Source of the DNA: an uncultured Verrucomicrobia subdivision 3 bacterium
GTDB taxonomy: Bacteria; Verrucomicrobiota; Verrucomicrobiia; Limisphaerales; UBA11358
Length of the DNA stretch: 36,835 nt
Direction of reading: 5' to 3'
Assembly: GCA_903870815.1 (NCBI GenBank)
Contig: CAIQEI010000049.1
Location: 1 to 36,835 of the forward strand
Shown here piece by piece: positions 1 to 22,388 of the stretch. Below the pieces are notes generated by a model. That model did no database searches, had not been told where the DNA came from, and saw only the letters and a program-made list of their open reading frames with translations. The stretch's first letter is position 1; each line of letters begins with the position of its first letter. Both the position numbers and the translations under genes were made by a program.

Positions 1-499
1 GAAAAACGCCGAAAGGCGGACAAAAGGAGCGGACGCATCGGGAAGAACACGGGAACTCGGCAGGTTCCGTGAAAAACTTCCAAGCGCCGGCGATGTTAAA
101 AACGACACCGCTGGACTGTGAGATAAAAGGCAACTTGAGAGAGAAGAGGCGAGACCCGTGGCCCCGGGCGAACGCACCGTCAAAAACGGTGGCTGACCCG
201 GAGCCAGTGGTCAAGACGCGAACGAAATCGCAGGCGTGTCTTGACCTGGTTTGCAGGCCGGTGGCGCAACCACCAGCCGAAGCGAGCTGAAAAGCCTCAC
301 TCGAAATCCAACCGCCGCAAGGCGGTGGACGGCCCTGCTACGAGGCCGATAACTCCGCTTGCCGTGGAGAATGGCGTCGGGAAGCCGGCAGCCCCGCAAG
401 GGCGCGCCTAATGCTGGCTCGGGAAAGAGAGAGTGGCGAACTCCCATCCCCCATTTGTCCCGGTTCGACCGCAAGGTCGGGCCGGGACTTATTGTTTTT
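1..499 (+). ncRNA. Candidate structured RNA (3' part; 5' end outside window)
   Basis: No reading frame here looks like protein, but hairpins are dense. Visible stems: 7-18 (CGCC, GAAA loop), 48-71, 87-114 (one G-U pair and one mismatch), 175-191, 204-249 (about 12 bp, GGTCAAGAC with GTCTTGACC), 256-278 (CGCAA loop), 312-325 (GCAA loop), 373-408 with an inner GCCC/GGGC hairpin, and 458-487 (13 bp, GCAA loop). The GNRA-type loops read as such only on the plus strand, and the last stem is followed by a T-rich run, so a plus-strand transcript is favoured. I compared it from memory with RNase P RNA, tmRNA, SRP RNA and group II intron domain V and found none of their conserved cores. The identity is unknown, and a degraded mobile element is possible. 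Confidence 0.38.
458..499 (+). terminator. Terminator-like hairpin ending the structured region
   Basis: TCCCGGTTCGACC (458-470) pairs with GGTCGGGCCGGGA (475-487) across a GCAA tetraloop, giving 13 continuous pairs with two G-U wobbles. The T-rich CTTATTGTTTTTA follows. It lies about 185 bases before cysK and would end any transcript coming from the left edge. Confidence 0.5.
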
Positions 500-683
500 A
501 TGGCCGGGGAAACATTCAAAGCCTAACTCCGAATCAAAGCCGGCGTTCGAAATGCGATTCCTTAAAGGTTCGGCGGGGAAGGTTGAAGGTTCAAGTTTTC
601 CCAATTGATTTAATCCTTGCCCGGGAACATCTTTTCGCCAAGATTTCTGAACGCGAAACTGAATCATTTAATCAAATAAAATT

Positions 684-1667
684 ATGGGACGCATTTATAA
701 CAACATCATTGAAACCGTCGGCCGCACGCCGCTGGTCAAATTGAACAAGGTCACCGCCGGCGTGGACGCCAACATCCTGCTCAAGTGCGAATTCTTTAAT
801 CCGCTCGGCAGCGTCAAAGACCGCATTGGCATGGCGATGATTGAAGCCGCCGAAAAGAGTGGCGCGCTGAAGAAAGACACCGTCATCATCGAGCCGACCA
901 GCGGCAACACCGGCATCGCGCTCGCCTTTGTCGCGGCCGCCAAGGGCTACAAGCTCATTCTCACGATGCCCGAAACGATGTCGCTCGAACGCCGCACGCT
1001 GTTGGCGATGCTCGGCGCGAAACTGGTTTTGACGCCCGGTGCGGAAGGCATGAAGGGCGCGATCGCCCGTGCCGAGGCGCTGGCGAAAGAGACACCGAAC
1101 TCCTGGATCCCGCAGCAGTTTGAAAACCCGGCCAACCCGGCCATCCATTCCAAGACCACGGCCGTGGAGATTTGGGAGGACACCGATGGCAAGGTGGACA
1201 TTCTGATTTCCGCCGTGGGCACCGGCGGTACCATCACCGGCGTCACCGAAGCCCTCAAGCCGAAGAAACCGTCGTTTCAGGCCATCGCAGTGGAGCCGAA
1301 GGATTCGCCGGTCATTTCCCAGACGCTCGCCGGTCAGCCGGTCAAGCCCGGCCCGCACAAGATTCAGGGCACCGGCGCGGGTTTTGTACCGAAGAATCTG
1401 CATTTGAAAGACAGCGCCGGCAATCCGCAGATCGTCGAATGCGTTCAGGTTTCCAATGATGATGCGTTTGCGATGGCGCGCCGGCTGGCGAAGGAAGAGG
1501 GCATCCTCGTCGGCATCTCGACGGGCGCGAATGTCATTGCCGCCATCGAAGTGGCCAAGCGTCCGGAAAACAAGGGCAAGACCATCGTGACGATCGCCTG
1601 CTCGACCGGCGAACGCTATTTGAGCACCGCGCTCGCCGCCGAGGCCCGCGCCGAAGTGGGCGGTTGA
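684..1667 (+). CDS. cysK: Cysteine synthase A (O-acetylserine sulfhydrylase)
   Basis: A PLP enzyme that makes L-cysteine from O-acetylserine and sulfide in the cytoplasm. The 327-residue length is normal for CysK. The PLP lysine is K45 in SVKDRIG, the substrate loop TSGNTG is at 72-77, and the phosphate-binding GTGGT is at 179-183. Near the C-terminus a Ser/Thr-Gly-Glu-Arg-Tyr segment at about 308-312 contacts the pyridine ring in this family. The ATG at 684 is the natural start because homologues begin a few residues before the TVGRTPLV block. No good Shine-Dalgarno is visible. The gene stands alone, with a long leader upstream and a strong terminator downstream. Cystathionine beta-synthase is less likely because there is no C-terminal CBS domain. 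Confidence 0.96.
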
Positions 1668-1690
1668 TTTTAGGGCCCTAGGCATATCCG

Positions 1691-1727
1691 AAAACCGCCC
1701 GCAGTTTCTGCTGCGGGCGGTTTTTTA
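1691..1727 (+). terminator. Intrinsic terminator of cysK
   Basis: AAAACCGCCCGCAG (1691-1704) and CTGCGGGCGGTTTT (1711-1724) form a perfect 14-bp stem around a 6-base loop, followed by a T run. It starts 23 bases after the cysK stop and separates cysK from rho. Confidence 0.95.
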
Positions 1728-22303: not shown

Positions 22304-22388
22304 TGGTGCGCATAGCAGGACTTGAACCTGCACGCCTTGCGGCACTACCACCTCAAAGTAGCGTGTCTGCCAATTCCACCATATGCGC
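22304..22388 (-). tRNA. tRNA-Leu (anticodon GAG)
   Basis: An 85-base class II tRNA with encoded CCA. The acceptor stem GCGCATA pairs with TATGCGC. The D stem is GTG/CAC with the GG-containing loop. The anticodon stem CTACT/GGTAG encloses TTGAGGT, so the anticodon is GAG (at 22354-22352). The long variable arm is a GCC-GCAA-GGC hairpin, typical of leucine tRNAs. The T arm is GCAGG-TTCAAGT-CCTGC, and the discriminator is A. It reads CUC/CUU leucine codons. Confidence 0.97.

Follow-up and report, generated by a model that had tools for sequence, protein, structure and literature searches.

A MISL RNA gene of Verrucomicrobiota and a probable link of its transcription to DnaA

The first 499 nt of this contig are rich in hairpins and lie directly before a cysteine synthase gene (cysK), which raises the question of what RNA they encode and whether it belongs to cysK or stands on its own. 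The window analysed here is the whole stretch of 36,835 nt. A sequence-only reading had proposed a hairpin-rich, non-coding RNA on the plus strand, either undescribed and lineage-specific or the tail of a known RNA that starts left of the window. The region is a member of the catalogued MISL family. We consider it probable that it is part of a complete MISL gene of ~860 nt with its own promoter and terminator, producing a trans-acting folded RNA whose transcription is coupled to DnaA.

Identity and extent of the gene

The Infernal search against Rfam that the sequence-only reading had suggested gave a clear answer. With cmscan, RF03079 (MISL RNA) matches window 1-444 on the plus strand at 378.2 bits (E 4.3e-113); the gathering cut-off is 274.6 bits, so the window part alone scores above it. 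The match covers model positions 296-751, which is about the 3' 60% of the model, and is flagged as cut at its 5' end. This means that the RNA is not undescribed; it is indeed the tail of a known RNA beginning further left, and the term lineage-specific was apt, as matches occur in Verrucomicrobiota. No other Rfam family reaches its cut-off in window 1-499. A P26 match on the minus strand (20 bits, cut-off 36) was dismissed as chance. RNase P RNA had been excluded from the letters, and rightly: RF00010 sits on contig C89 of this genome, with no match in the window. The 6S RNA (RF00013) was likewise set aside, as it sits on contig C144. The family was reportedly described by Weinberg et al. in 2017 (NAR). 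Among 5.39 million open papers, the sole listed use of MISL is in Ribonanza, where it serves as an example for chemical mapping.

The left edge of the window is artificial, since base 1 is the end of contig C49 and lies inside the RNA. An exact overlap joins it to contig C101, on which the promoter and the 5' portion of the RNA lie (Table 1); exact overlaps at two contig ends are a typical trace left by an assembler at a branch. Reading C101 on its minus strand into the window yields one joined gene of ~860 nt, with the RNA start at ~C101:484 on the minus strand. The full RF03079 model (1-751) is thereby recovered, its 5' part on C101 and positions 296-751 in the window, and over the model's full 751 positions the two contigs read together agree with MISL in sequence as well as in secondary structure. 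Contigs of three relatives (G012, G028 and G056) also break inside MISL. Such breaks probably arise where co-occurring species share long identical MISL stretches, owing to the strong conservation of the RNA; like rRNA genes, MISL is likely to cause trouble when metagenomes are assembled and binned.

The gene extends beyond both ends of the Rfam model. In an alignment of 31 sequences, conservation starts ~57 nt 5' of Rfam position 1, at AGTTCATTGAAAGAAC, and stops at a hairpin with a T-rich stretch, ~50 nt past Rfam position 751. The model stops short of this 5' block and of the terminator hairpin, which both belong to the gene; thus its length is ~860 nt. The pairs of the terminator hairpin are standard in 89% of cases, versus 37-60% when slid. 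The sequence-only reading had described this last GCAA hairpin and its T-rich tail correctly, giving it 13 bp where there are 14. On the 5' side, a -10-like element, which reads TAGAGT in this genome and TATGAT in others, precedes the RNA start, and the putative start site is placed at the conserved 5' block. The true gene ends will be useful for anyone producing MISL RNA for structural work.

Table 1. Coordinates of features of the MISL gene and its surroundings (window coordinates unless C101 is named)
Feature	Position	Strand	Remark
122 nt shared exactly with one end of contig C101 (L003)	1-122		C101 holds RNA 5' part and promoter
Long-range helices 139-149/295-302 around a multibranch domain	139-302	+	pairs standard in 99.8-100% of cells
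Stem-loop 162-168/197-203 and 175-180/186-191	162-203	+	compensatory changes in 5/7 and 6/6 pairs
10-bp hairpin	211-244	+	compensatory changes in 9/10 pairs
16-pair hairpin	249-287	+	compensatory changes in 13/16 pairs
Adjacent hairpins 307-329, 330-348, 353-369	307-369	+	compensatory changes in 8/9, 2/5, 5/6 pairs
Last two Rfam hairpins, 384-418 (GCAA loop) and 429-443	384-443	+	compensatory changes in 7/7 and 3/4; 1/3 pairs
Intrinsic terminator, 14-bp hairpin 457-470/475-488, GCAA loop, T-rich TTATTGTTTTT at 489-499	457-499	+	conserved
Cysteine synthase (cysK), separate downstream gene outside the RNA	684-1667	+	neighbour unconserved beyond related lineage
DnaA-box-like 9-mer array	C101 (L003) ~480-690	-	positions fixed; conserved over several Verrucomicrobiota families

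Conserved structure and distribution

Window 1-499 folds at -224 kcal/mol, versus -187 kcal/mol in dinucleotide shuffles (6 sd; 0 of 100 shuffles as good), and with the plus-strand RF03079 match this bears out a hairpin-rich, non-coding RNA on that strand. The GNRA-type loops noticed earlier are present (GAAA at 11-14; GCAA at 317-320, 396-399 and 471-474), while the earlier count of about nine stems was too low: between window 7 and 443 the model has 16 helices with 100 base pairs in total. The one long open frame on the plus strand (3-290, open at the contig edge) spans covarying RNA helices and is taken as chance.

The covariation check, which had also been suggested, was carried out by counting pairs over 130 dereplicated full-length homologues at the 100 Rfam pairs within the window. 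The alignment was made from sequence only and is thus not fitted to the structure. Standard pairs fill 87.8% of the pair cells, versus 35-42% in controls with the 3' partner slid by 1 to 3 bases; at 76 of the 100 pairs at least two sequences are changed on both sides, versus 41-51 pairs in the slid controls. The compensatory changes are spread over the arms listed in Table 1. The long-range helices that enclose the multibranch domain are nearly invariant and thus carry little covariation information; the most conserved core (TGAGAG..AAGAGGCGAGACCCGT) lies within this domain. Arms that covary around a core with almost no variation suggest an RNA that acts through its shape, such as a particle, a ribozyme or a protein sponge, rather than a short antisense RNA.

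Among 59 close relatives, 38 have a MISL match above the cut-off, nearly always as a single copy and, at full length, with up to 618 bits. Across the phylum it was found in 23 of 288 sampled genomes, mostly in single copy, and none of the 14 control genomes had it. A search with a 20-base pattern from the core, which divergent members elsewhere could escape, hit at least 117 stretches in 84,980 species genomes; among the matches listed, all but two carry verrucomicrobial names, the exceptions being recorded as 'bacterium' and 'Proteobacteria bacterium'. Two copies occur in some Opitutales assemblies, namely G213 (L179, L193) and the contig pairs L061/L113, L072/L161 and L105/L153. A phage origin was considered and rejected: just two of 2.9 million viral contigs carry the MISL core (L168 and L169), both are short, and they are probably host DNA.

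The DnaA-box-like array and its possible readings

The MISL promoter region on C101 contains repeated TTGTTCACC and GGTGAATAA words. With the pattern T[TC][AG]T[TC]CAC[AC], counted in the 300 nt before the RNA start, there are 2.13 boxes per 300 nt upstream of MISL (145 loci) versus 0.046 downstream. After dereplication, 131 upstream regions hold 276 boxes, versus a mean of 4.05 and a maximum of 9 in dinucleotide shuffles; at least one box is found in 119 of the 131 regions and at least two in 91. The background, sampled over 1.52 Mb of four complete relatives, is 0.036 boxes per 300 nt, with no 300 nt holding three. The enrichment does not depend on the chosen pattern, because TTATTCAC ranks first in an unbiased 8-mer count (105 of 131 loci, 1.1 expected). 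By the strict pattern, 12 of the 131 non-redundant loci have no box; none is found at the G117 locus or at one of the two G213 copies, the second copy in G213 also having the lower score.

The boxes keep their places relative to the RNA start, with peaks at -63 (46 loci; 13 more at -64), -81/-82, -93, -114, -151 and -184; this genome has them at -184, -151, -82 and -63. Most of the distant members (families f26, f34, f36, f37 and f46) retain one to three. The array consensus has the form TTRTTCAC[CA], and the commonest MISL box, TTATTCACC, ends in C; the classic DnaA-box consensus TTATCCACA, as given in a review (PMC8203912), ends in A.

The regulator that binds these sites is probably DnaA, judging from the boxes before dnaA and from the protein itself. 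First, MISL-type 9-mers stand before dnaA in all 15 MISL-bearing genomes examined, at ~-300 to -350 in 14 and at -10 to -44 in 8 of them, with constant orientation, and none stands before dnaA in G079 and G082, which belong to the same class and lack MISL. According to PMC8203912, dnaA autoregulation through such a box is an established mechanism. This promoter test rests on relatives, since dnaA was not found in the genome under study. At the dnaA loci L194-L212, TTRTTCAC[AC] boxes often occur as two copies ~270-300 nt apart. Second, domain IV of DnaA from MISL-bearing genomes matches Pfam Bac_DnaA_C strongly, and its recognition motif reads GGRDHGTV, with RDHGTV in 14 of 14 genomes inspected. 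The E. coli motif is GGRDHTTV; one may speculate that the change might account for tolerance of C as the last base of the box.

It is unlikely, though worth weighing, that a different transcription factor, one that controls dnaA as well, uses these sites, for instance a growth or cell-cycle regulator new to this phylum. The commonest words do differ, the C-ending TTATTCACC prevailing at MISL and the A-ending TTATTCACA at dnaA. However, the word departs from the known DnaA box by only one or two letters, a place before dnaA is the classic one for a DnaA box, and the altered motif in the strongly matching domain IV could relax one base.

We give a still smaller chance to the array being a DnaA titration or reactivation locus, comparable to E. 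coli datA and DARS, alongside which MISL would merely be transcribed, with a function unrelated to replication. A dense array off the origin, with several boxes extending as far as 184 nt upstream, would suit such a locus; against it, the spacing of the boxes from the RNA start is constant across orders even though the genes alongside differ, which indicates that the array and the RNA move together as a single unit.

That the array is the chromosomal origin, with MISL as an origin-borne RNA like CcnA of Caulobacter (PMC8959179), is very improbable. Clustered DnaA-box-like sites would be expected there, but the GC skew, sampled along four complete genomes, puts the origin at ~4.15-0.05 Mb with MISL at 2.45 (G076), at 0.7-1.55 Mb with MISL at 4.39 (G157), at 3.5-3.85 Mb with MISL at 1.67 (G149) and at 1.15-1.4 Mb with MISL at 3.14 (G332). 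The circular distance is at least 1.5 Mb in each, and all four have MISL in the half of the chromosome on the side of the terminus; along a 153-kb contig, too, the skew does not switch at MISL. With MISL so far from the skew origin, the array is not oriC, which leaves a promoter or a titration site. In the same four genomes, dnaA also lies away from the skew origin. Nor does it adjoin MISL, the nearest case observed being ~63 kb away (G016) and the distances in complete genomes ranging from 155 kb to ~2 Mb.

The genes around MISL vary between lineages. Clustering by sequence gives 69 groups for the nearest upstream frames (136 loci) and 57 for the nearest downstream frames (130 loci, with the frame on the opposite strand in 49). 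These counts are approximate, as some of the groups are spurious antisense frames, yet the turnover of neighbours is plain. cysK as a neighbour belongs to this lineage, and Opitutales loci have other neighbours. With neighbours that differ by lineage and a terminator of its own, MISL is free-standing and not a cysK leader; the label 'upstream of cysK' in the sequence-only reading holds as a position here and not as a functional link. A cis-regulatory, riboswitch-like role for MISL before cysK is scarcely credible. In this genome cysK starts 185 nt past the terminator, and some 30 related loci have it downstream, but the RNA has a conserved terminator of its own at its 3' end, and in other lineages it is followed by a typA-like GTPase and other genes or by the opposite-strand frames counted above. 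After cysK there is a strong terminator-like hairpin (window 1690-1725, ACCGCCCGCAG...CTGCGGGCGGTTTTTT), and a tRNA gene lies at 22307-22388 on the minus strand.

Proposed role in relation to DnaA

We propose that the MISL promoter lies under the box array, its nearest boxes at -63 and ~-52 from the RNA start. By binding at the array, DnaA would link the transcription of MISL with the initiation of replication or with the cell cycle, in the way it does for its own gene. Boxes at these two positions adjoin the upstream side of the promoter, which would fit activation; such boxes can also repress. The MISL RNA itself may be a stable structured particle, acting in trans as a scaffold, a ribozyme or a sequestering RNA, the dose of which would track DnaA activity.

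Several known systems bear comparison. OLE, GOLLD and ROOL are likewise single, non-coding genes of several hundred nucleotides with dense conserved structure; they have no Rfam match in the window, and MISL is chromosomal in Verrucomicrobiota. DnaA-regulated promoters, for which dnaA autoregulation is an example (PMC8203912), have boxes of the same kind, and these also stand before dnaA in the MISL-bearing genomes, yet the array at MISL is denser than that at dnaA. By a term search, that review names no small RNA among the DnaA targets. In the literature searched for DnaA-linked non-coding RNAs, the nearest case is CcnA of Caulobacter crescentus (PMC8959179), which has DnaA and CtrA boxes and is wired to cell-cycle regulators; it is only 182 nt long and sits at the replication origin, whereas MISL is off the origin, and we claim no homology. 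The DnaA-box promoter of MISL appears to be undescribed in the literature searched, which did not include the first description of the family.

More tentatively, and as a possibility that we would not yet favour, MISL may be part of a DnaA replication-control circuit of Verrucomicrobiota, feeding back on replication timing or on DnaA. If this is true, MISL would become the first of the large ornate bacterial RNAs to be assigned a place in the cell cycle. MISL has been a catalogued orphan; its putative DnaA-box promoter makes the control of this RNA testable and points to replication or growth control.
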